A stretch of DNA of 40,943 bases. Origin: a virus. Positions 19,130 to 31,119 of this stretch are shown piece by piece (the stretch's first letter is position 1; each line of letters opens with the position of its first letter). The notes under the pieces were generated by a model. The model was not told the origin of the DNA. It ran no database searches and was given only the letters and a program-made list of their open reading frames with translations. The position numbers were made by a program, and so were the translations under genes. The stretch is from positions 1 to 40,943 of IMG/VR virus record IMGVR_UViG_3300034820_000003; one strand, 5' to 3'.

Positions 19130-20155
19130 ATGGCGAACGTCCTCCTCTACAACCTTGCGGCCATGACCGTTGCCAGCACGGGAACGGGCACGATTACGCT
19201 TGGTTCGGCAGCTACAATCAACGGCGTGCTGTTTCTGAGTTTTGCTGCTGCTGGCGTGAGCAATGGTGAGACGGTTGCTTATTCGATCCTCGATCCGTCA
19301 GGCGCCTCGGAAGTGGGATTCGGCGTCTATACGTCGGCCGGCACGACGCTAACGCGCAACGCGACGACATCGACCAACAGCAACAACGCGATCAACATGT
19401 CGGCGAACGCGATCGTTCGGATTTCGCCGCGGTTGCAGGACATCGGAACGCCGGGCCAGCGCCCGGCTACGACGACCAACGACAGCGCCAGCGCGGGTAA
19501 TGCGGGAGAATATCGCTACAGCAAGACCACGACCGGAACGTCTACGGTCACTATCTCCAATGCCTCGCCAGGCATCATTTCGTGGACCAACCATGGTCTC
19601 AACATCGCGTCCGGGGTGAATTTTACCACCACAGGCGCGCTGCCTACGGGGCTTTCGGTTGGAACTAACTATTATGTGTCATCGCAAAGTTTCGGAGCCA
19701 ACAGCTTTGCGGTTTCAACAAGCGTCGATAACGCTATCGCAGGAACCAGCGTCAATACATCGAGCGCGGGCTCAGGAACGCATACTGCTACCAGCACGAT
19801 CCTTCTGACGACCACGGGACAAATCAATGTAACCGGCATGTCACTCACGGCCGGCGATTGGGATGTGTTCTATCAGTCCACCAAAACCACGGGGACGGCG
19901 ACCAATACGACGGTTGCGGTTGCCAGCATTTCTTTGGTGAGCAGCACGGTCGATGGAGGCATGGGCAATTTCAACGTCATCAACTGTCCATCGACCGGAT
20001 TTGTAGCTCCAAACGGGGCTAATCTGATCGTGACAGTAGGGCCTGTTCGGCAATCATTTTCTGCGACAACGACTGTATACGCCGTGGATTATTCGGTCTT
20101 TACCGTCAGCACATTGACAGGTGCCGGCATCATGATCGCCCGCAGGGTACGTTGA
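19130..20155 (+). CDS. Thr/Ser-rich beta-structured virion protein, 341 aa
   Basis: Almost entirely Thr, Ser, Ala, Gly and Val with beta periodicity. Around 140-200 there is a repeat-like domain (TGTSTVTISNASPGIISWTN, LPTGLSVGTNYYVSSQSFGA) like those in phage tail-fibre and decoration proteins, and a C-terminal barrel-like region. No cysteines except one near 285. It probably sits on the virion surface. Next gene is an esterase-like protein. Confidence 0.6.
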   Translation: MANVLLYNLAAMTVASTGTGTITLGSAATINGVLFLSFAAAGVSNGETVAYSILDPSGASEVGFGVYTSAGTTLTRNATTSTNSNNAINMSANAIVRISPRLQDIGTPGQRPATTTNDSASAGNAGEYRYSKTTTGTSTVTISNASPGIISWTNHGLNIASGVNFTTTGALPTGLSVGTNYYVSSQSFGANSFAVSTSVDNAIAGTSVNTSSAGSGTHTATSTILLTTTGQINVTGMSLTAGDWDVFYQSTKTTGTATNTTVAVASISLVSSTVDGGMGNFNVINCPSTGFVAPNGANLIVTVGPVRQSFSATTTVYAVDYSVFTVSTLTGAGIMIARRVR

Positions 20156-21060
20156 TGATGGTATTTTTCCCAACCGTCAACACAGCGGCAGCCGTTGCCA
20201 ACTACGTCATGGGCGACGGGTCCATGTCGGTGGATTGCGGGACAAACCCGATCACAGCCAGATTGATGCAGGGGCTTGATCCCTATGCCATGCGCGACAT
20301 GGTTCCGTTCGGAAAGGGAAACGGCTATTCCACGCTGACGGGAAAGACGCCAACCACGCTGCCGATCTCGGGGCGTCGTGGGCTTATCTATGTGCGGTCG
20401 CAATCCAATGCCGGAAATGTCTCCGGGGCGACTGCCTACAACCCCGCCAATCCGAACGCGATTTTCAATATCAATCCGTTCAACGGGCTGGTCTACAAGC
20501 TGACCGATCCGATCCTAGGGGCGGATGGGCCGGGTGCATCATTCGTCACGCGGCTGGCGGACGGGTTGGTTTCATCTGGTCTGGTCGATACCGTTACCGT
20601 CATCAACATGGCCGTGGGAGCTACTACCGCCGCGCAATGGGCCAGCGGCGGCATCTGCTATCACCGCATTTTCGTGGCGCATCAGCGGGTATTGCAGCAA
20701 TCGAGTTTTGCCCCGTCATGGCGCATCTGGATTCACCATCAGGGCGAGAGCGACACGGCCGCGAGCACGGCAGGCTATCCCTATCAGGTCGCACTCGAAA
20801 GCACCCTGGCGCGCTGCAACGAGATGACCCCCGCCGCCATGCAGTTCGTCGGGAAGGTCAGCTTTTACAATACGCAGACCTCGGCAGCCATCACGCGAGC
20901 CCAAGCCAGCGTTGTCAGCCGTAATATTCGAACGCTCGGAGACTTCGACACCATCGACTGCACAGGCCGGTCTGCTGGCTGCATCGACTACAATACGGCA
21001 GGCGTCACCTCGGCGGCATCGATCGCTCAGACCCAGATCCAGAACTGGTTGACAGGCTGA
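20155..21060 (+). CDS. SGNH/SASA-type carbohydrate esterase-like protein, 301 aa
   Basis: Shows blocks of the SGNH superfamily, closest to sialate O-acetylesterase-like (SASA) proteins: SQSNAGN with the nucleophile candidate S84, NMAVGATTAAQW with an oxyanion Gly near 155, and HHQGESD at 194-200. Such enzymes remove acetyl groups from surface sugars. The usual C-terminal D-x-x-H is not seen; the matching region reads CIDYNTAG (276-283). So activity may be altered or absent, or the His lies elsewhere. Start at ATG 20155; coupled to the preceding beta-rich protein. Confidence 0.8.
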   Translation: MMVFFPTVNTAAAVANYVMGDGSMSVDCGTNPITARLMQGLDPYAMRDMVPFGKGNGYSTLTGKTPTTLPISGRRGLIYVRSQSNAGNVSGATAYNPANPNAIFNINPFNGLVYKLTDPILGADGPGASFVTRLADGLVSSGLVDTVTVINMAVGATTAAQWASGGICYHRIFVAHQRVLQQSSFAPSWRIWIHHQGESDTAASTAGYPYQVALESTLARCNEMTPAAMQFVGKVSFYNTQTSAAITRAQASVVSRNIRTLGDFDTIDCTGRSAGCIDYNTAGVTSAASIAQTQIQNWLTG

Positions 21061-22243: not shown

Positions 22244-23365
22244 ATGGAACTAGCTGACCAGCAAGTCCAGGAGAATGAGGGATCAGGCGGCCTTTCCGGC
22301 GCGGAAATCCCTGCGGCCGCGGATGTACCGGCGCAATCGTCGGCTCCCGCCGAAAAGCCTGCGAAGGAAGCCAAGCTTTCCATTCGCGAGCAGATCACCA
22401 AATCAGTCGAGGCTGCGCGGGTTGAGGAAGCCAAGCGCGCCCGAGCGGCAGGCGGCAAATTCACGAAATTGGAAGCTGGCGCGGCTGAGAAGCCTGCGAC
22501 GGCCCCTGAAATCCCGAAGCCTGAAGCGCAGGCGCAACCCGAAGCCTCAAAGCCTGTCGGGCCGCCTTCTGCTTGGAAGGCCATTTGGGAGAACCTATCC
22601 CCTGAAGCGCAAGCGCTCGCGGTCAAACGCGAAGCGGACGTTGAAAAGGGGTTCTCCGAGTATCGTACTAAAACCGCTCAACTCGCGGAAATCTCGCAAG
22701 TCTTTGAACCGATCCGCGCCGTTCTTCAGCAGAATGGCATCACATCGGACGTTCAAGCCGTCAAACAGCTTGCACAATGGGAAGGGGCGTTTCGCAACCC
22801 AGCGACGCGCACTCAGGCCTTTCACGACCTTGCCAGAACATACGGGGTTGATCTCGCAACCTTGGTCCAGAGTTCTTCATCCGCAGCGCCGTCAAATGCG
22901 CAGGATATTCCCGATCAGCTTCGGCCGGTCCTCGATCAGTTCGGTCAGGTTTCGCAGCAGGCTCAACAGGCGCTCGCCCGCGTTCAAACGTGGGAAGAGC
23001 AGCAGGCCGCTCGCGAAATCACTGCGTTCGCTTCCAACCATCCGCATTACGAAGCTGTCCGTGTTCAGATGGGCAAGCTGATTACTGCGGGCCTCGCCAC
23101 CAATCTCGATGACGCCTATCAGCAGGCGGTCAAGATTCATCCCGAGGTATCGGCCAAGATCGCCGAGGAAGAGCGCACCAAAGCCGAACAGAAGGCCGCA
23201 ACCGAACGAGCTGAAAAGCTCCGCGCCGCACAAGCGGCTGCGGTATCGCCTTCTCCAAGAGCCCCATTGGGCGCGGGTGCATCAGCACCACCCGGCAAGA
23301 AGGCAGGCGTAAGGGATTCCATCCTGTCGTCCATCAGCGCGCTCCGGGAGGAACAAAGGGCCTAA
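22244..23365 (+). CDS. Scaffolding protein, 373 aa
   Basis: Likely internal scaffold for procapsid assembly. Start at ATG 22244 (MELADQQVQE) chosen for the GGGAG just before it; the frame extends 29 codons upstream across the end of the previous gene. Low-complexity Ala/Glu/Pro-rich N-terminus, PSAWKAIWENLSPEAQALAV near 125, long Gln/Ala helices, and a C-terminal basic-acidic tail, the usual design of phage scaffolds. It directly precedes the major capsid gene. No protease gene is seen. Confidence 0.8.
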   Translation: MELADQQVQENEGSGGLSGAEIPAAADVPAQSSAPAEKPAKEAKLSIREQITKSVEAARVEEAKRARAAGGKFTKLEAGAAEKPATAPEIPKPEAQAQPEASKPVGPPSAWKAIWENLSPEAQALAVKREADVEKGFSEYRTKTAQLAEISQVFEPIRAVLQQNGITSDVQAVKQLAQWEGAFRNPATRTQAFHDLARTYGVDLATLVQSSSSAAPSNAQDIPDQLRPVLDQFGQVSQQAQQALARVQTWEEQQAAREITAFASNHPHYEAVRVQMGKLITAGLATNLDDAYQQAVKIHPEVSAKIAEEERTKAEQKAATERAEKLRAAQAAAVSPSPRAPLGAGASAPPGKKAGVRDSILSSISALREEQRA

Positions 23366-23381
23366 CCCAATGGGGTAGGCT

Positions 23382-24416
23382 ATGGCCTTTCCGAATCTCT
23401 CTGAAATCGTGACGACCACCCTGCGTTCGCGCACGGGTGAACTAGCCGACAACATGAGCCGCAACAACGCGTTGCTCGCTCGTCTCAGCCGGCGGGGCAA
23501 GGTCAAGACCTTCTCCGGCGGCCGAACCATCGTCCAGGAACTCAACTACGCCAACAACCAGACGTTCCAATGGTACAGCGGCTACCAGACGCTGAACATT
23601 GCGCCGTCGCAGACCTTCTCGGCTGCGGAATATCCCATCCGCCAGTCCGCAGTGGCTGTCTCGATCTCCGGCCTGGAAGAGCTCCAGAACTCCGGCGAGG
23701 AAGCGATCATCGACCTTCTCGAATCCCGCATCGAGAACGCCGAAGACACCTTCATGAACGGCATGAGCCAGGGCATCTACGGCGACGGTACCGTTACCGG
23801 CTCCGTCAACGGCCTTCAGCTCCTGATCGCCACGGCGCCCACCTCAGGCATCGTCGGCGGCATCGATCGCGCGACCTGGACCTTCTGGCAGAACCAGAAA
23901 TACGGCGCGGTCACGGACGGCGGCGCAGCGGCCACCTCGGCGAACATCCAACAGTACATGGATTCGATCTGGGTGACGCTGGTTCGCGGCCGTGACGCTC
24001 CTGACCTCATCGTCGCCGACAACAACTACTACAAGTACTACTGGCAGTCGCTGCAAGCCATCCAGCGCATCGCCACGGAAAACGGCTCGGGTGAGTTCGG
24101 CGCGCTGGGCTTCCAGACGCTGAAGTACAACACGGCCGACGTGGTGCTGGACGGCGGTTTCCAGGGCTACTCCACCGATCCGTTCCCGGGCGAACTCTCC
24201 TCGACCGTGACCGGCCTCGGCGGTGTCCCTGCGTCCACGATGTACTTCATCAACACGAAGTACCTGCATTGGCGACCGCACGCCCGCCGCAACATGGTCC
24301 CCCTCGATCCCGACCGCTTCAGCGTCAACCAGGACGCCATGGTCAAGCTCATGGGTTGGGCCGGCAACATGACCCTCTCGAACGCCTTCCTTCAGGGCGT
24401 CCTCTACAACACGTAA
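23382..24416 (+). CDS. Major capsid protein, 344 aa
   Basis: Forms the icosahedral shell. The N-terminus MAFPNLSEIVTTTLRSRTGE, the segment TIVQELNYANNQTFQWYSGY and the LMGWAGNMTLSNAFLQGV end are typical of a major capsid family of podoviruses and related phages. GC-rich codons ending in C/G dominate, as expected for a highly expressed gene. It lies right after the scaffold and ahead of a decoration-like protein. The long E-loop and spine helix patterns fit an HK97 fold, by inference. Confidence 0.9.
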   Translation: MAFPNLSEIVTTTLRSRTGELADNMSRNNALLARLSRRGKVKTFSGGRTIVQELNYANNQTFQWYSGYQTLNIAPSQTFSAAEYPIRQSAVAVSISGLEELQNSGEEAIIDLLESRIENAEDTFMNGMSQGIYGDGTVTGSVNGLQLLIATAPTSGIVGGIDRATWTFWQNQKYGAVTDGGAAATSANIQQYMDSIWVTLVRGRDAPDLIVADNNYYKYYWQSLQAIQRIATENGSGEFGALGFQTLKYNTADVVLDGGFQGYSTDPFPGELSSTVTGLGGVPASTMYFINTKYLHWRPHARRNMVPLDPDRFSVNQDAMVKLMGWAGNMTLSNAFLQGVLYNT

Positions 24417-24428
24417 GGAGCCACGCAC

Positions 24429-24992
24429 ATGGTCGCATACGCTGCTCAGTCCATCGAAGGCGTGGACGTTACGGGCATCTACACCATCTACAACCAGGCG
24501 GCGGCGCAATCCGCCACCAATACGCCGGACTATCCTGCGCTGCCGTTCAAGTTGGGAACGCAGGTTGTCTGCACGGACGGCTCGCGGTGGATCTTCGCCG
24601 ATACCACCACGACCATCGCGCAGGGCTATACGGTCGCCATCAACTCCACCTTCCGCGCAACTGCGATCGGTGGAGCGGGCGCGGCTACCGCCGTTCCGGA
24701 AGCGCTCGCCATGCAGATCGGGTTCTACCAGAACTCGACCTCGCTGACGACGGGTCAGGCTGCGTGGTTCATGATCCAGGGCGTTCCCACGGTGCTGGTT
24801 GCATCGGCCGGCATCTCCGTGGCGCTTTACAGTTCGGACACCGCGGGTGCTCTGACGGGCGCCACCAACACCGTCTCGCACTACCAGATCAGCGGCATCA
24901 CCTGCGTTGTGACGGCCTCGGGCAGCACCGCTTCGCTGACCTCGACCGTTGCCAACTCGGTCTCGGTGCGCAAGCCGCAGGCTGGTTCGTAA
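24429..24992 (+). CDS. Head decoration/accessory protein, 187 aa
   Basis: A strong AAGGAG precedes the ATG by nine bases. The protein is Thr/Ala/Ser-rich and beta-structured (VVCTDGSRWIFADTTTTIAQ; AMQIGFYQNSTSLTTGQAAW) with a typical decoration-protein profile. Its position immediately after the capsid gene supports a role on the capsid surface, and it is a plausible substrate for the sugar-modifying genes that follow. Confidence 0.65.
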   Translation: MVAYAAQSIEGVDVTGIYTIYNQAAAQSATNTPDYPALPFKLGTQVVCTDGSRWIFADTTTTIAQGYTVAINSTFRATAIGGAGAATAVPEALAMQIGFYQNSTSLTTGQAAWFMIQGVPTVLVASAGISVALYSSDTAGALTGATNTVSHYQISGITCVVTASGSTASLTSTVANSVSVRKPQAGS

Positions 24993-25570
24993 TGCTCATC
25001 TACGCCTCGGCATGCCCGGTCTACTACGCCGCGCATGGCGAGGCGTTCGTGCGTTCTGCCGCCCGACATGGCTATCAGGTCAAGATCGACATCTCGGACG
25101 GTCCCAACGACTACGCAGTGCCGAAGTGGAAAGCCGCGGCACTGCGCTTTTTGAACCTGCCGGAACTGCTCGACAGCAACGATCAGGTTCTGGTGCTGGA
25201 CATCGACTCCATCATCAACGGCCCGATCCCGGTTCAGGACGATTGGGACATGGCGCTGTTTTTCCGGCCGTGGATTCCGGAGGAAAACAAGAAGCTCTTG
25301 CTCGCCGCCTCCTACTGGACGCCGCGCGCCAAGCCGTTCGCCGAGCACATGCGCGCTCAGTACCACAAGAAAAGCAAGTGGCTGTCCGAACAGACCTACG
25401 CCTACCGAACGTATCTGGAGATCGGCGACCAGTTCAACATCGGGCGCCTCGACCAGAATTTCGTCAGTTACGATTTTCGCGAGAATGCGGCGATCTGGAC
25501 CGCCAAGGGTCCGGCGCGCAAGGGCGATCCCAAATACATCGAGCGGAGGGATAGTCATGTCGCTGCTTGA
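24992..25570 (+). CDS. GT-A-fold glycosyltransferase, 192 aa
   Basis: Start ATG 24992 (MLIYASACPVYYAAHGEAFV). The segment VPKWKAAALRFL followed by VLVLDIDSIINGPI carries the D70-I-D72 motif that binds metal and nucleotide sugar in GT-A enzymes; WKAAALRFL is the usual helix before it. The C-terminal IWTAKGPARKGDPKYI resembles the tail of small phage glycosyltransferases. It would transfer a sugar from a nucleotide donor. First gene of a three-gene sugar cassette in the late operon, directly after the decoration protein. Confidence 0.75.
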   Translation: MLIYASACPVYYAAHGEAFVRSAARHGYQVKIDISDGPNDYAVPKWKAAALRFLNLPELLDSNDQVLVLDIDSIINGPIPVQDDWDMALFFRPWIPEENKKLLLAASYWTPRAKPFAEHMRAQYHKKSKWLSEQTYAYRTYLEIGDQFNIGRLDQNFVSYDFRENAAIWTAKGPARKGDPKYIERRDSHVAA

Positions 25571-26321
25571 CCTTCATGAAGTAGGCCCGATCACGTCGTT
25601 CGCCGCGATGGATGACGACGTGCGCAACGAGCACGTCAAGCGCAACAGCAAGGCCGTCTATGGCAGGCTTCGCGATGACATTCCCCCGCACGACCGGCTG
25701 GCCTCGCTGGCGTGTTTCGGACCTTCTCTGAAGCAGACTTATCCCTTCCTCAAGGGCGACATCTATTGCGTCGGCGCCGCGCATGCGTTTCTGATCGATC
25801 AGGGTATCTATCCGATCGCCAGCATCGACTGCGACCCGCGGGCTCGGGTGGTGGAGCAGCTTGGCAAGCCGCACCGTGAGGTCAGCTACTGGCTCGCCTC
25901 CTGCGTCAACCCTGCCTATATCAAGAAGCTCGAAGGCTATGACGTAACGCTATTCCACCTGCACAACGGCGAGGCGTCGGCGAATTTCATCTGGGATCGC
26001 GAGCCCGATGCGTGGCTTCTGAACGGCGGCGGCAGCGTCGGCCTGCGCGCGATTTCGCTGCTCTATGCGCAGGGTTATCGCCGCTTTGAAATCCACGGCA
26101 TGGATTCGTCCTACGAGGGCGAACAGGAATATGCCGGCGCCCATACCGGACCCGAGAAGAAAAGCATCTTCCGCGTCATGTGCAGGGATCGCTGGTTCCG
26201 CACCAATCCGCAACTGATCGACTACGCCCGCCAATTTCTCTCCGACCGGCCAAAGCTCTGGCCGAACGCGGAAATCCGCCTCTATGGCGACGGGCTCTTG
26301 CAGGAGATGTGCCGTGCTTAG
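25557..26321 (+). CDS. DUF115/MptE-like (Maf-related) protein, 254 aa
   Basis: Start ATG 25557 with GGAGGG six bases ahead. FGPSL at 54-58, IYCVGAAHAFLIDQGIYP, the D91-C-D93 pair, NGGGSVGLRA at 156-165 and GMDSSYEG at 181-188 match the DUF115 family (6-hydroxymethylpterin diphosphokinase MptE-like), which includes Maf proteins that glycosylate flagellin with nonulosonic acids. A nucleotide- or sugar-transfer role is therefore likely. It sits between two glycosyltransferases and overlaps both. Confidence 0.8.
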   Translation: MSLLDLHEVGPITSFAAMDDDVRNEHVKRNSKAVYGRLRDDIPPHDRLASLACFGPSLKQTYPFLKGDIYCVGAAHAFLIDQGIYPIASIDCDPRARVVEQLGKPHREVSYWLASCVNPAYIKKLEGYDVTLFHLHNGEASANFIWDREPDAWLLNGGGSVGLRAISLLYAQGYRRFEIHGMDSSYEGEQEYAGAHTGPEKKSIFRVMCRDRWFRTNPQLIDYARQFLSDRPKLWPNAEIRLYGDGLLQEMCRA

Positions 26322-26976
26322 AGTATTCATCGGCTTCGATGATCGCCAGGCTGTGTCCTACCATGTGCTCTGCGCTTCCATCATGAAGCACGCGAGCAAG
26401 CCGGTCTCGATCACGCCTCTGATCTTGCCGTCGCTGCCAATCAAGCGACGGGGGCTCACGCCGTTCACCTTCTCTCGCTTCCTGTGTCCATATCTCTGCG
26501 ACTTCAAGGGAACGTCGCTATTTCTTGATGCGGATATTCTCGCGCGCGCCGATCTGGCGACGCTGCCGAACATCGAGGAAACGTATCACAACGTTGCCCT
26601 CGTCAAGAACAAGCTGAAGTTTGAATGGTCATCGGTGATGTTGTTCAACAATGCGTTCTGCCGCAACTTAACGCCGGAATACATTGACGATCTTTCGCAC
26701 AATCCAATGAAGATGGAATGGGCAATCGACATCGCTGAATTGCCGCCCGAGTGGAACCATCTCGTAGGCTATGACGAGCCCAACCCCAACGCCAAGCTGG
26801 TGCATTTCACGCAGGGCGTTCCGGTGTGGCCGGAAACCATGAACAGCGAGCACGCCATGGAATGGCGCTCCACCATGCTCGAATTGATCCAGGCAAAACC
26901 GTGGGCCGAGATCATGGGCAATTCGGTTCACGCCAAACCAGTTCTTGAACGACTGCAAACGGGAGAAGCAGCATGA
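26314..26976 (+). CDS. GT8-like glycosyltransferase, 220 aa, GTG start
   Basis: GTG at 26314 is chosen for the AGGAG ahead of it and because VLRVFIGFDDRQAVSYHVLC is the expected N-terminus. SRFLCPYLCDFKGTSLFLDADILARADL contains the D72-A-D74 nucleotide-sugar motif, and KLVHFTQGVPVW near the C-terminus is the typical His-containing closing motif of this group. Overlaps the DUF115 gene by eight bases. Together these genes probably modify virion proteins; an effect on the host envelope is less likely, given late expression. Confidence 0.8.
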   Translation: MLRVFIGFDDRQAVSYHVLCASIMKHASKPVSITPLILPSLPIKRRGLTPFTFSRFLCPYLCDFKGTSLFLDADILARADLATLPNIEETYHNVALVKNKLKFEWSSVMLFNNAFCRNLTPEYIDDLSHNPMKMEWAIDIAELPPEWNHLVGYDEPNPNAKLVHFTQGVPVWPETMNSEHAMEWRSTMLELIQAKPWAEIMGNSVHAKPVLERLQTGEAA

Positions 26977-27761
26977 ACGATCTCACTGAATTCCGTCCGA
27001 TGACCGGCATGGACTCCGCATCCATCGCCTCGCAGGGCTATGGCATGGTCCAGTACGGACCCGGCGACGACAAGCTCTTGGCCGGCTTCTACAAGAAATC
27101 CGTCCTCAACGCGGCGCAGTCGCGCGCCGAAGGCCGCCCGATCTACAACGGCGTGGATTTCGTCAAGATACAGCATCCCGGCGAAACCCTGAACGTGGTG
27201 GACCGGCCGGCGACCGAGCAGGACAAGCAGCGCTTCCAGCGTCAATGGGCGCAGTATTCCGCGGGTGTGACGCAAATCCCCGATGGCGTGCCGCTGAACC
27301 AACTCTTCCCCGATAAGCCGCAGATCGTGGACATGATGCGCGGCTACAACATCCACACCGTCGAGCAGCTTTCCAACCTGTCCGGCCAAGCCATCTCGAC
27401 GGTCGGCATGGGCTGCCAGGAATGGGTCAACCTCGCCAAGCGCTACATGGAGCGCGCCGAGAAGGGCGTCGATCACCACAAGTTCGAGACGGCGATGGCG
27501 CAGAAGGATCAAGAGATCGCCGCGCTGAAGCGTCAGATGGCGGAAGTAACCGCGCTGGTTCGTCAGCAGCAGTCGCAGGCGCCGCGCGCCATGCCGCAGA
27601 TGCCCGTCGTCGATGATTTACAGACCATGCAGATCAACACGGCTCACCAGAGCAACGAAGGTCTCACCCCACTGCCTGCTCAGTTCCATACGGATTTGTC
27701 CCCGCAGGTCCAACCCGCGCCGCGCCGTCCCGGCCGTCCGCGCAAATTGCAGGAGAACTAG
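26973..27761 (+). CDS. Virion-module protein with C-terminal AT-hook, 262 aa
   Basis: The start region (MNDLTEFRPMTGMDSASIAS), VDFVKIQHPGETLNVVDRPA and a helical segment with YNIHTVEQLSNLSGQ are conserved in phages of this group next to capsid genes. Residues about 165-195 form a coiled coil. The end reads PRRPGRPRKL, an AT-hook that binds the minor groove of AT-rich DNA. It may be a capsid-internal or connector-associated protein. GGGAG precedes the ATG. Confidence 0.6.
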   Translation: MNDLTEFRPMTGMDSASIASQGYGMVQYGPGDDKLLAGFYKKSVLNAAQSRAEGRPIYNGVDFVKIQHPGETLNVVDRPATEQDKQRFQRQWAQYSAGVTQIPDGVPLNQLFPDKPQIVDMMRGYNIHTVEQLSNLSGQAISTVGMGCQEWVNLAKRYMERAEKGVDHHKFETAMAQKDQEIAALKRQMAEVTALVRQQQSQAPRAMPQMPVVDDLQTMQINTAHQSNEGLTPLPAQFHTDLSPQVQPAPRRPGRPRKLQEN

Positions 27762-28133
27762 ATGGCCAAGAAAGAAGACTTGATGCAGGCTGGCTTTGCG
27801 TGGCCGTTGGCTCAGCTTGAAGGTCTGAGCAGCACCACCATTACGGCGGCCGGCACGACCTCGACGGATGCCACGGCAGCCAACTCGGTAGCCAATAACG
27901 TATTCATCATGACGGCATCGGGCTCCGATGGCATTCGCATGTCGTCGTCCACGCCGCTGCTGTCGATGGTCTTTGTCTGCAATACCGCGGCCGGTAACGG
28001 CAAGGTCTATCCGCATACGGGCGGCGCGGTGAATGGCGGCTCGACCGATGCCGGCGAAACCTGCAATGCCACGACGGTCCAAATCTGGATGCGCGTCAGT
28101 TCAACGGCATGGGTTGCTGTTCTGGGCGCCTGA
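27762..28133 (+). CDS. Small beta-rich virion protein, 123 aa
   Basis: ATG immediately follows the previous stop; AGGAG precedes it. Thr/Ala/Ser/Gly-rich with strand patterns (NVFIMTASGSDGIRMSSSTP; LSMVFVCNTAAGNGKVYPHT). The GKVYPHTGGAVNGG portion resembles a family of head accessory proteins in rhizobial phages. It probably coats head or tail; unproved. Confidence 0.6.
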   Translation: MAKKEDLMQAGFAWPLAQLEGLSSTTITAAGTTSTDATAANSVANNVFIMTASGSDGIRMSSSTPLLSMVFVCNTAAGNGKVYPHTGGAVNGGSTDAGETCNATTVQIWMRVSSTAWVAVLGA

Positions 28134-28136
28134 TCC

Positions 28137-29084
28137 ATGGCCCAACTGAACCTGTTGCAAATTATTCAGGCCGTAACCGGCGAACTCGGACTGGTGCAAC
28201 CGTCCGTGGTCGTCGGCGCGACCGATTTGCAGACGCTTCAGTTGTTCAACCTCTGCAACCGTGCAGGGGACAGCCTCAAGCGCGATCATGACTGGACGTT
28301 CTTGCAGTCGCTGTTCACGCTGGACGTAACCGCGCCGACCGTAACGACCGGGAATACCTCGGAAGGCTCTGCGGTCCTCTCCGGCATTCCATCAACGGCA
28401 GGCATCACGGCAGGCATCTACGTGGTGACGGGATCGAGCATTCCCGTTGCGGCCCGCGTGCTGTCGGTGGACAGCGGCACGCAGATCACCATGGACATGG
28501 TGGCGACGGGCACCAATACCGCGACCACGCTTACCTTCGCGCAGGACACCTATCCGGAGAACGCCGACTTTGACAGATTCCTCAATGGTACTGCATGGGA
28601 TCGCACTAATCGTTGGGCTCTTCTTGGTCCTGACAGTCCTCAATTGGACGAATATCATCGGTCGGGAATTGTCACTACGGGACCGCGCCGCCATTTCCGT
28701 CAGGTCGGGAATCTTGTTGCTGGCACTTACCGGCTTTGGCCGCCTCCTGCAACTGTAGATACGCCATTCCAAATCGCATGGGAGTACATCTCCCTGAACT
28801 GGGTCCGCGTCAACGGCGGCGCGACACTCGCCGCGTCCTTTGCGAATGACGATGACGTTCCACTGATCGACAGCCAGGCGCTGATCCTCGCCACGAAATG
28901 GCGCTTCCTCGAAGCCAAGGGCATCCCGACCGCTGCATCGATGCAGGTGGAATTTCGTGATTACGTTTCTCAGCTCATTGCGCGCGACGGCGGCGCTCCG
29001 ACGCTCAACATGGGCCGGCGCTTTGAACCGTACCTGCTCAGTCCCTGGAATATTCAGGATGCCAACTATCCGGGGAACACCTGA
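28137..29084 (+). CDS. Head-tail adaptor / tail tubular protein A-like, 315 aa
   Basis: The N-terminal helices (LLQIIQAVTGELGL; LQLFNLCNRAGDSLKRDHDW) and the C-terminal half (RFLNGTAWDRTNRWALLGPD; DSQALILATKWRFLEAKGIP) fit the podovirus adaptor group (T7 gp11/P22 gp4 type) that docks under the portal. Between them, about 60-135, is an inserted Ig-like or beta domain rich in Thr and Gly. Last residues overlap the next gene by one base. Adaptor function inferred from family resemblance and order. Confidence 0.78.
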   Translation: MAQLNLLQIIQAVTGELGLVQPSVVVGATDLQTLQLFNLCNRAGDSLKRDHDWTFLQSLFTLDVTAPTVTTGNTSEGSAVLSGIPSTAGITAGIYVVTGSSIPVAARVLSVDSGTQITMDMVATGTNTATTLTFAQDTYPENADFDRFLNGTAWDRTNRWALLGPDSPQLDEYHRSGIVTTGPRRHFRQVGNLVAGTYRLWPPPATVDTPFQIAWEYISLNWVRVNGGATLAASFANDDDVPLIDSQALILATKWRFLEAKGIPTAASMQVEFRDYVSQLIARDGGAPTLNMGRRFEPYLLSPWNIQDANYPGNT

Positions 29085-30700
29085 TGCGCGCGACACTCGC
29101 CCTTCAGATGGACAAGAAAACCCGCAATGGCTTCATGGCGGGAACTGGCTTGTCTTATCCGATGTCGATCCCGGCTTCCGTCAAGGGCTGGGACCAGATC
29201 AGCTCGCTCGCCAACATGGAGCCGGACCACGCTGTCCAGCTCGACAATTTCATCCCGCGTCCCGGCTATCTGGAAGTGCGGCGCGGCTCGCGGTCATGGG
29301 CAACCGGCGTCGGCTCTGGCCCCGTCGAAACCATCATGGCGTACAACGCGCCGAACCTCAACAATTCAAAGCTGTTCGCGATAGGTGGCGGCGCAATCTA
29401 TGACGTGACCACGCAGGGCGCAGGCTCAATCACGACCATCACGGGCCTTTCGAGCAACCGCTGGCAGTATTGCAATTTCACCAATGCCGCCGTGGCTGCA
29501 TGGCTTGTTGCCGGCAATGGCGTCGATCACCCCGTTATCTATGACGGTTCGACGTGGGCACAGATGACGCTCACTGGTATCTCTCCGGAAGATGTTGCGT
29601 CATGGACGGCATGGAAGGGGCGGCTGTGGTGTACGCTCGCCAACTCCACCAAGGTCGGCTATCTCGCCAATTCCGCGATCTCCGGCGCGGTCACGACGTT
29701 CGACCTCGGCCAGCAACTGACCCGCGGTGGCAACATCATTGCCATTGCCTCATGGACGCAGGACTCCAAGCAGACCGTTGACGAGTACATTGCGTTCATC
29801 TCCTCGCGCGGTCAGGTCGTGGTCTATCAGGGCACGGACCCGAGCACGGCCAACACCTTTGCACTGGTGGGCCTGTACGATCTCGGCGCACCGATCGGCA
29901 AGCGCTGCTTCCTGCGCATTTCCGGCAATCTCTGGATCATCTGCGTGGACGGCATCCTGCCGATGTCGGAGATGCTGACCATGGACCGTGCGGCATCGGC
30001 CAAGGTCGCGCCCACGACCATGATCCAGAACGCCATGATGACGGCGGCGCGGCTCTACAACGGCAATTTCGGCTGGCAGTTCATCGAATACGCCAAGGGC
30101 CAACTCGCCATCCTGAACATCCCGCAGGTCGAGAACAACACTTCCGTCCAGTTCGTCATGAACACGTTGACCGGCGCCTGGTGCCAGTTCACGGGCATCA
30201 ACGCCAACTGCTGGGAAGTGCTTAACGACGTGCCGTATTTCGGATCGAATGACGGTGGGGTCTATCAGTGGGATTACGGCTCGGGCGACTACATCGATAC
30301 GCTGGATTATCCCATCACGGCGACAGTGCAGACCGCGTTCAATTATTTCGAGAGCAGGGGACACCTGAAGCGCTGGACGATGGTTCGTCCGATCCTGACC
30401 ACGGACGGCTCGGTTACGCCGGGCGTTGGCCTCAACGTCGATTTCGGGACGGATGCGCCGATCTCCATTCCTTCGACCTCAAGCTCGGTTGCCGCGCTGT
30501 GGGATGTAGCACTTTGGGATGTCGCGATCTGGCCGATTAACTCGTCCGTGGTGGCGAACTGGACGACCATTGAGGGCATCGGGCAATGCGCTTCGATCAT
30601 CACCAAGGTTTCGACGACCGCGAACGGGTCAGCCAATGGCGTGACGCTTCAGCTCAATAGCTGGGATTTGATCGCCGAACCGGGAAAGGCGTACTTCTGA
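29084..30700 (+). CDS. Tail/DNA stabilisation protein (P22 gp10-like), 538 aa
   Basis: A long beta-propeller-like protein: PDHAVQLDNFIPRPGYLEVR near the N-terminus and repeated strands with SWTAWKGRLWCTL and FGSNDGGVYQWDYGSGDYID. These motifs mark the P22 gp10/T7 gp12-type tail hub or packaged-DNA stabilisation protein of podoviruses. It follows the adaptor gene as expected. No enzymatic motif. Overlaps both neighbours by one base. Confidence 0.82.
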   Translation: MRATLALQMDKKTRNGFMAGTGLSYPMSIPASVKGWDQISSLANMEPDHAVQLDNFIPRPGYLEVRRGSRSWATGVGSGPVETIMAYNAPNLNNSKLFAIGGGAIYDVTTQGAGSITTITGLSSNRWQYCNFTNAAVAAWLVAGNGVDHPVIYDGSTWAQMTLTGISPEDVASWTAWKGRLWCTLANSTKVGYLANSAISGAVTTFDLGQQLTRGGNIIAIASWTQDSKQTVDEYIAFISSRGQVVVYQGTDPSTANTFALVGLYDLGAPIGKRCFLRISGNLWIICVDGILPMSEMLTMDRAASAKVAPTTMIQNAMMTAARLYNGNFGWQFIEYAKGQLAILNIPQVENNTSVQFVMNTLTGAWCQFTGINANCWEVLNDVPYFGSNDGGVYQWDYGSGDYIDTLDYPITATVQTAFNYFESRGHLKRWTMVRPILTTDGSVTPGVGLNVDFGTDAPISIPSTSSSVAALWDVALWDVAIWPINSSVVANWTTIEGIGQCASIITKVSTTANGSANGVTLQLNSWDLIAEPGKAYF

Positions 30701-31119
30701 TGAAGACGTTTGTCCTTGGTCATGATGTGGAAGTCGCGCATTGGGCGTTCGGTACGTTCAACTTTGCGCCCGTCCCGTTTTGCATGGCGGTCGGCATCGC
30801 GGAGCGGGAAAAAGGCCTCGTCGGCGCTTTCCTGTTTCATGCGCACAACGGGCCAGATGTCGAGGTCTCCTATTACGGCCCCGGCACGATGACGCCTGAG
30901 ATCGTCAAGGGCATTGCCAAGATCGCCGTTGAACAGCTTGGCGTGTCGCGCATCACGGCGCGCACCAGCCGCGACAATCATTTGCGCAAGAGCATTCACA
31001 AACTCGGCTTCGAGTTCGAGGGCGTGCGCAAGTGCGGCTATGGCGAGGACCATGATGCACTGATGTACGGCCTTTATGGCAAAAACCTCGCGAAACTCGC
31101 GGGAAAGGCGGTGCATTGA
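30700..31119 (+). CDS. GNAT-like internal virion protein (T7 gp13-like position), 139 aa
   Basis: Resembles a GNAT acetyltransferase fold: strand pairs with FHAHNGPDVEVSYYG, a helix near IVKGIAKIAVEQLGV, and RTSRDNHLRKSIHKLGFEFE, which is like the acetyl-CoA-binding turn and last helix. Phage proteins of this type lie between tail-tube and ejection proteins, as T7 gp13 does. Enzymatic activity is uncertain; many are structural. Stop lies one base before the next gene. Confidence 0.72.
   Translation: MKTFVLGHDVEVAHWAFGTFNFAPVPFCMAVGIAEREKGLVGAFLFHAHNGPDVEVSYYGPGTMTPEIVKGIAKIAVEQLGVSRITARTSRDNHLRKSIHKLGFEFEGVRKCGYGEDHDALMYGLYGKNLAKLAGKAVH

Follow-up and report, generated by a model that had tools for sequence, protein, structure and literature searches.

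A Maf-like DUF115 gene flanked by glycosyltransferase genes in a phage head operon: a putative virion-protein glycosylation cassette exchanged together with a decoration-like gene

Why would a phage carry three genes of sugar-transfer type among the genes for its head? The question is raised by the window analysed here, a 40,943-nt virus record of a soil phage, namely a ~40.9-kb temperate podovirus-like contig with Mx8-like head genes. The window encodes a tyrosine integrase together with an HTH repressor-like protein, which makes the phage probably temperate. We predict, and consider it probable, that the cassette enzymes glycosylate a virion protein, the likeliest being the product of the Ser/Thr-rich decoration-like gene immediately upstream.

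The three ORFs of the cassette are listed in Table 1 with their neighbours. All are present as a preliminary description of this DNA had reported them, with the DUF115 gene in the middle and the DID and DAD motifs in the flanking products. That description also had all three genes overlapping, and every junction does overlap, including those with both outer neighbours. The GTa start overlaps the end of the decoration-like gene as TAATG at 24992, GTa and the DUF115 gene share 14 nt (25557-25570), the DUF115 gene and GTc share 8 nt (26314-26321), and GTc overlaps the p50-like gene as ATGA at 26973. The cassette had further been placed between the capsid/decoration genes and the tail adaptor gene. 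The position stands, but the adaptor is not immediately next, as two genes intervene. The window major capsid protein (MCP) shares 49 % identity with the protein annotated in Mx8 as major virion structural protein. At 57-62 % GC, the cassette is similar to the surrounding DNA, so composition gives no mark of recent import. No promoter-like or terminator-like sites were found within 23300-28300, and the cassette enzymes have no transmembrane segments.

Table 1. Genes of the cassette and its surroundings in the window
Feature	Coordinates	Strand	Details
Major capsid protein, Mx8-like, upstream flank	23382-24416	+	phrog_9953, E 6e-112
Decoration-like head protein, proposed acceptor	24429-24992	+	24.6 % Ser+Thr
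GTa, GT-A fold glycosyltransferase, 192 aa	24992-25570	+	LDIDS motif, DID 70-72
DUF115/MptE-like protein, Maf/sialyltransferase-like core, 254 aa	25557-26321	+	PF01973, E 3e-11
GTc, GT8-like glycosyltransferase, GTG start, 220 aa	26314-26976	+	DAD 72-74; PF01501, E 1.5e-4
Downstream flank gene, Mx8 p50-like	26973-27761	+	phrog_20268; similarity to Mx8 gene at p50
Second small Ser/Thr-rich putative decoration protein, alternative acceptor	27762-28133	+	23.6 % Ser+Thr
Tail accessory/adaptor gene	28137-29084		
Gene at P22-gp10-like ('stabilization') position	29084-30700		

Three further genes of the window were noted in passing. A SASA-type hydrolase (sialic-acid-specific acetylesterase family, E 8e-8) is encoded at 20152-21057, between the portal and scaffold genes. 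The product of 29084-30700 carries the PHROG label 'amidase' (phrog_5107), which may be wrong; 'phage stabilization protein' is annotated there in L083 and L086. Directly after this gp10-like gene, 30700-31119 gave a weak GNAT acyltransferase match, and acetyl- or acyltransferases are annotated at the matching place in Bradyrhizobium phage ppBjS10J-1, BUCT555 and two Manatee Spring phage records.

The middle protein had been described as a DUF115/MptE-like protein related to Maf, and both profile and fold place it nearest to a Maf. It matches PF01973 (DUF115/Maf_flag10) with 43.7 bits against a cut-off of 34.6 (E 3e-11), and a profile search against the PDB returned Maf 5MU5 (E 7e-10) and MptE (E 0.0035). 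For an AlphaFold2 model built from 13 homologues (mean pLDDT 89.9), the best Foldseek match in the PDB was again the Magnetospirillum Maf 5MU5 (E 2.6e-6), with archaeal MptE (HPPK) ranking second and mammalian sialyltransferases after it, and the model has a sialyltransferase-related fold. The Maf version of this central domain is similar to the sialyltransferase Cst-II (PMC11339370). Maf proteins are extended by an N-terminal Rossmann-like domain and a C-terminal helical domain, both of which the window protein lacks (254 aa, compared with 666 residues in 5MU5). It is a stand-alone core domain, which contains a GPS motif, and is not classed as a full Maf. MptE, the 6-hydroxymethyl-7,8-dihydropterin pyrophosphokinase, is not its closest match, being second in Foldseek and having a weaker profile E value than Maf. 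A single-protein search with the DUF115 protein found no match in phage GenBank records or IMG/VR, and its relatives were reached only by alignment search.

GTa has no Pfam or PHROG match, and a sequence search against the PDB found nothing, so that a fold model was needed. The AlphaFold2 model (10 homologues, pLDDT 85.5) has a GT-A fold, with the best Foldseek match to 2P6W, the PBCV-1 capsid glycosyltransferase (E 2e-9), the next to the UGGT catalytic domain, and further matches to many other GT-A enzymes. Though 2P6W is virus-encoded and is described as an enzyme that glycosylates the major capsid protein, it is only 15 % identical to GTa and comes from a eukaryotic algal virus. Because GT-A folds are widespread, this match proves the fold of GTa and not its function. 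Residues D70, D72, W169, K172 and G173 are invariant in the 10 GTa homologues. GTc falls just under the cut-off for the GT8 Pfam family PF01501 (21.9 bits against 24.3), and a GTc homologue in the podovirus record ctDrO704 exceeds it (36.6 bits, E 5e-9). D72, D74, W105SS and H164-T166-G168-P170 are invariant in 11 GTc homologues. The GTa and GTc profiles, compared with each other, did not match significantly, and the two share no demonstrated homology beyond the GT-A fold.

Whether the arrangement is peculiar to this phage was addressed in a total of ~160 viral contigs, with a capsid-protein search giving 79 IMG/VR loci and the DUF115 alignment search giving 80 viral loci. The relatives are metagenome phages, and they were compared using sequences and models; no isolate in the phage collection searched carries the cassette. 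Head/neck genes of the window phage type adjoin 74 of the 80 viral DUF115 loci, and 53 have the MCP gene upstream and the adaptor/gp10 genes downstream, though near-duplicate contigs are included (e.g. L103-L105) and these counts are not of independent loci. Among the six others, L095 is near a portal gene, L107 is near a virion protein gene and L098 has a weak head-protein match only. The gene pattern is not due to chance, since dozens of relatives have a DUF115 gene at the matching place. In GTDB genomes, the DUF115 pattern found one locus only (L174, a MAG contig), which itself carries phage MCP, adaptor and gp10 genes. Because this sole GTDB locus adjoins phage head genes, the sequences suggest that the DUF115 subfamily is largely viral.

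The contents of the slot, which lies between the decoration-like gene and the p50-like gene, vary even among phages with MCPs 84-94 % identical to that of the window. In this set, DUF115 is accompanied by one or two glycosyltransferases in the window, L002, L004 and L014, a distant DUF115 is alone in the slot of L005, L006, L009, L011, L012 and L044, a TPR-glycosyltransferase is found in L010, and the slot of L007 is empty. The L017 slot is similar to the DUF115 plus glycosyltransferase type. A protein combining TPR with a GT9-like part is present in 11 relatives (L010, L015, L018, L023, L027, L038, L041, L064, L065, L068 and L079), and the ten besides L010 have MCPs, where intact, that are ~70-78 % identical to that of the window. 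The TPR assignment is clear and the GT9 match is weak (E 4e-4 in L010, 0.019 in L023). In the slots of L068 (11938-13804) and L079, a DUF5672 protein and a Glyco_trans_1_2 glycosyltransferase were also observed. DUF115 is fused in one ORF to a glycosyltransferase in L047 (phrog_1962, E 1e-28) and to a methyltransferase domain in L002 and L014. In the otherwise distant ctDrO704, the interval from the capsid genes to the tail genes contains genes for a TPR protein, a methyltransferase and the GTc homologue. The head modules of Myxococcus phage Mx8 and of ppBjS10J-1 share the capsid family of the window and the gene order around the slot, but no DUF115 or glycosyltransferase gene was detected in their slots.

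Other variation was seen around the capsid gene. The MCP genes of L013 (1057-2815), L064, L065, L071, L073, L074 and L076 are interrupted by insertions. As GIY-YIG endonuclease ORFs lie near such insertions (L171:603-1718 and its homologue L065:9363-10484), introns or homing elements in capsid genes are suggested. An extra ORF between the capsid and decoration-like genes of L002 (9054-9689), HNH-like by eye, has homologues in L010, L013 and L055. Homologues of the window 27762-28133 gene directly follow the MCP gene in some relatives, e.g. L033 and L064.

Some relatives also encode a candidate sugar pathway. NeuB was found in 4 of the 50 records searched and a CTP_transf_3 CMP-sugar synthetase in exactly those 4, all of which hold DUF115 in the slot. 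In three phages, L033, L035/L173 and L073/L171, the pathway genes are inside the slot, in the order one or two DUF115, GNAT, NeuB, CMP-sugar synthetase, LegC-family-like aminotransferase, NeuC. L171 has two DUF115 genes. NeuC is above its NCBIfam cut-off in L033 and L171, and LegC and NeuB are below theirs. The fourth phage, L011, has a cluster of NeuB, methyltransferase, CMP-synthetase, aminotransferase and SDR genes elsewhere in the genome. From its sequences, the pathway in the three slots appears to be of CMP-legionaminic-acid type; no dehydratase for the first pathway step was identified in the phages with nonulosonate genes. The DUF115 proteins linked to these genes are only ~20-26 % identical to that of the window, and a search of the window for a CMP-sugar synthetase of this family was negative. 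The set of partners of Maf in bacteria includes the same nonulosonate genes (PMC13317340).

These neighbours bear on another identity for the DUF115 protein, namely that it is an MptE-like pterin or nucleotide pyrophosphokinase with a metabolic role and that the glycosyltransferases are unrelated passengers. The 'MptE-like' label in Pfam and in viral structure-library entries, and the second place of MptE among the fold matches, are what recommend it. Given that sequence and fold are both nearer to Maf, that glycosyltransferases and methyltransferases are what DUF115 repeatedly adjoins or is fused to, and that nonulosonate genes adjoin DUF115 in three relatives, we regard it as very improbable.

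If the cassette is a protein glycosylation system, the acceptor may be sought among the genes that move with it. The upstream decoration-like gene sits where Mx8 has the 'major virion structural protein' AAK94384, to which its product has no sequence match, and the homologue in L007 matches the virion structural protein phrog_29386 (E 2e-7). Pairwise identities of the DUF115 and decoration-like proteins are correlated (raw r 0.84; partial Mantel r 0.85, p 0.0002, n 14), and in partial Mantel tests DUF115 identities are uncorrelated with those of the MCP, the p50-like protein (r 0.08, p 0.22) and the adaptor. Individual phages illustrate this. L181 combines a far backbone (MCP 60 %, p50-like 36 %) with a close module (decoration 75 %, DUF115 63 %, GTc 68 %), and L005 shows the reverse, its backbone being close (capsid 92 %, adaptor 76 %) and its module distant (decoration 35 %, DUF115 25 %). 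In L010, the MCP is window-like (90 %), but the slot enzyme is a TPR-glycosyltransferase and the decoration protein is of the TPR type (61 % vs 34 %). Physical linkage could contribute to the co-exchange of decoration and DUF115 genes, but breakpoints are seen repeatedly on either side of the module. Because the decoration-like gene is exchanged with the enzymes and the flanking genes are not, we infer that its product is the best candidate acceptor.

Composition is consistent with this choice. The Ser+Thr content of the decoration-like proteins is 24.0 % in DUF115 phages (n 17), 21.7 % in TPR phages and 19.4 % in phages with no cassette (n 8), and the DUF115 phages exceed those with no cassette (Mann-Whitney p 0.0005, not corrected for kinship). 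An S-x-T-N-x-P-type loop near residue 30 is found in 12 of the 17 decoration-like proteins of DUF115 phages and is absent from all nine TPR-type decoration proteins tested. In the window protein the Ser/Thr-rich loop reads SATNTP. However, L007 has no cassette and yet encodes a similar decoration-like protein with this loop, so the loop may be older than the enzymes, or may be left after enzyme loss. Since L007 keeps such a protein, the modification would also not be essential for it.

The same phage can be cited for a different acceptor, be it the second Ser/Thr-rich protein, which is almost as rich in these residues (Table 1), the capsid or a tail fibre, with the co-exchange reduced to a by-product of recombination boundaries. 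L007 retains a related decoration-like protein where the enzymes are missing. However, it is the decoration-like gene that covaries with DUF115, while the neighbour on the opposite side does not, and in L010 the decoration-like gene has switched to the TPR-cassette type along with the enzyme. We therefore consider another virion acceptor unlikely.

The target might also lie outside the virion. Lipopolysaccharide or capsule could be altered during infection or lysogeny, leading to superinfection exclusion or serotype change; the phage is temperate, serotype-converting phage glycosyltransferases are well known (PMC12619734), and surface polysaccharides also contain nonulosonic acids. Against this, the cassette is translationally linked to the head genes, its enzymes lack membrane segments, no GtrA/GtrB partners or flippase were seen, and the slot position is kept in distant relatives and exchanged with a head-protein gene. 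Modification of the host surface is accordingly a decidedly improbable role. Glycosyltransferases of DNA-hypermodifying phages are also known (PMC12619734), but the scanned window genes include no hypermodified-base pathway and only a weak Dam-like methyltransferase match, protein is the substrate of Maf-type and FlmG-type enzymes, and it is with a head-protein gene that the module is exchanged. We give almost no weight to a role for the glycosyltransferases in modifying phage DNA.

Virion proteins thus remain the preferred target, as the preliminary description had proposed when it favoured them, and perhaps Ser/Thr-rich beta proteins among them, over the surface of a lysogen. The proposal is backed by conservation of the slot within the head operon over a broad range of these phages, by nonulosonate genes beside DUF115 in three relatives, by replacements with TPR-glycosyltransferases of FlmG-like architecture and by the lack of transmembrane segments. 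The choice of a Ser/Thr-rich target gains from the exchange of the upstream gene with the enzymes, and a role in lysogeny is unlikely even though an integrase is encoded.

We infer the catalytic activity, donor, acceptor, transfer order and biological purpose as follows. GTa, the DUF115 protein and GTc would be soluble cytoplasmic protein-glycosylation enzymes, translated with the head genes, and would modify a virion protein, most likely the 24429-24992 product, before or during assembly. For the DUF115/Maf-like enzyme, the probable reaction is transfer of an activated ulosonic acid, either onto Ser/Thr or onto a first sugar, and the two GT-A enzymes would add nucleotide-diphospho-sugars. Candidate donors for the DUF115 enzyme are a CMP-legionaminic/pseudaminic-type sugar or host CMP-Kdo, a common Gram-negative metabolite. 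Some Maf enzymes accept CMP-Kdo (PMC11339370). As the window is without a CMP-sugar synthetase of this family, the sugar donors of the window phage would be supplied by the host. The purpose may be a sugar coat that alters adsorption, stability or recognition.

A broader reading, which we put forward tentatively and judge to be a little short of probable, is that a large group of podoviruses has a dedicated hot spot immediately behind the decoration gene, where acceptor and enzyme are exchanged together in Maf-type, FlmG-type and CMP-nonulosonate-producing versions, giving a sialic-acid-like virion coat made by a flagellin-type O-glycosylation system that is independent of flagella. If true, both flagellin O-glycosyltransferase types, Maf and FlmG, are matched in phage head operons by counterparts that may be related to them, with each phage enzyme type tied to one small candidate acceptor, and the natural matched and mismatched pairs make acceptor specificity testable. 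It would also account for those phage proteins that currently bear the label 'MptE-like pterin diphosphokinase', and would suggest that among phages of soil and water a sugar-coated virion is commoner than the isolates indicate.

A phage-encoded Maf-like virion glycosylation system had been flagged as new, and in the literature searched, which included few subscription papers or preprints, we found no description of a phage head operon with a system of DUF115/Maf or TPR type, or of its link to nonulosonates. Virion glycosylation itself is known, and the part that appears to be new is the Maf/FlmG-type, nonulosonate-linked version. In mycobacteriophages, capsid and tail proteins bear glycans with which phage-encoded glycosyltransferases are associated (Freeman et al. 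2023, as cited in PMC11256854 and PMC12619734); these are different phages and hosts, and no DUF115 or nonulosonate component is mentioned in the citing passages. The second known type of flagellin O-glycosyltransferase is FlmG of Caulobacter, which consists of TPR and GT-B parts and binds flagellin via the TPR part (PMC7591256). The TPR plus GT9-like slot proteins of the 11 relatives, a type absent from the window, are likened to FlmG by domain architecture only.

Among the closest known systems is Maf (PF01973; A. caviae Maf1, M. magneticum 5MU5 and C. botulinum Maf), with which the window protein shares the core domain, fold and solubility. Maf glycosylates flagellin in the cytoplasm (PMC4065374). 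It belongs to a flagellar locus with flagellin as the acceptor, whereas the window protein is encoded in a phage head operon without flagellin and is flanked by two GT-A glycosyltransferases. Bacterial Maf proteins are often encoded beside their acceptor and CMP-nonulosonate genes (PMC4065374, PMC11339370, PMC13317340), and three window-type phages share the linkage to CMP-nonulosonate genes.
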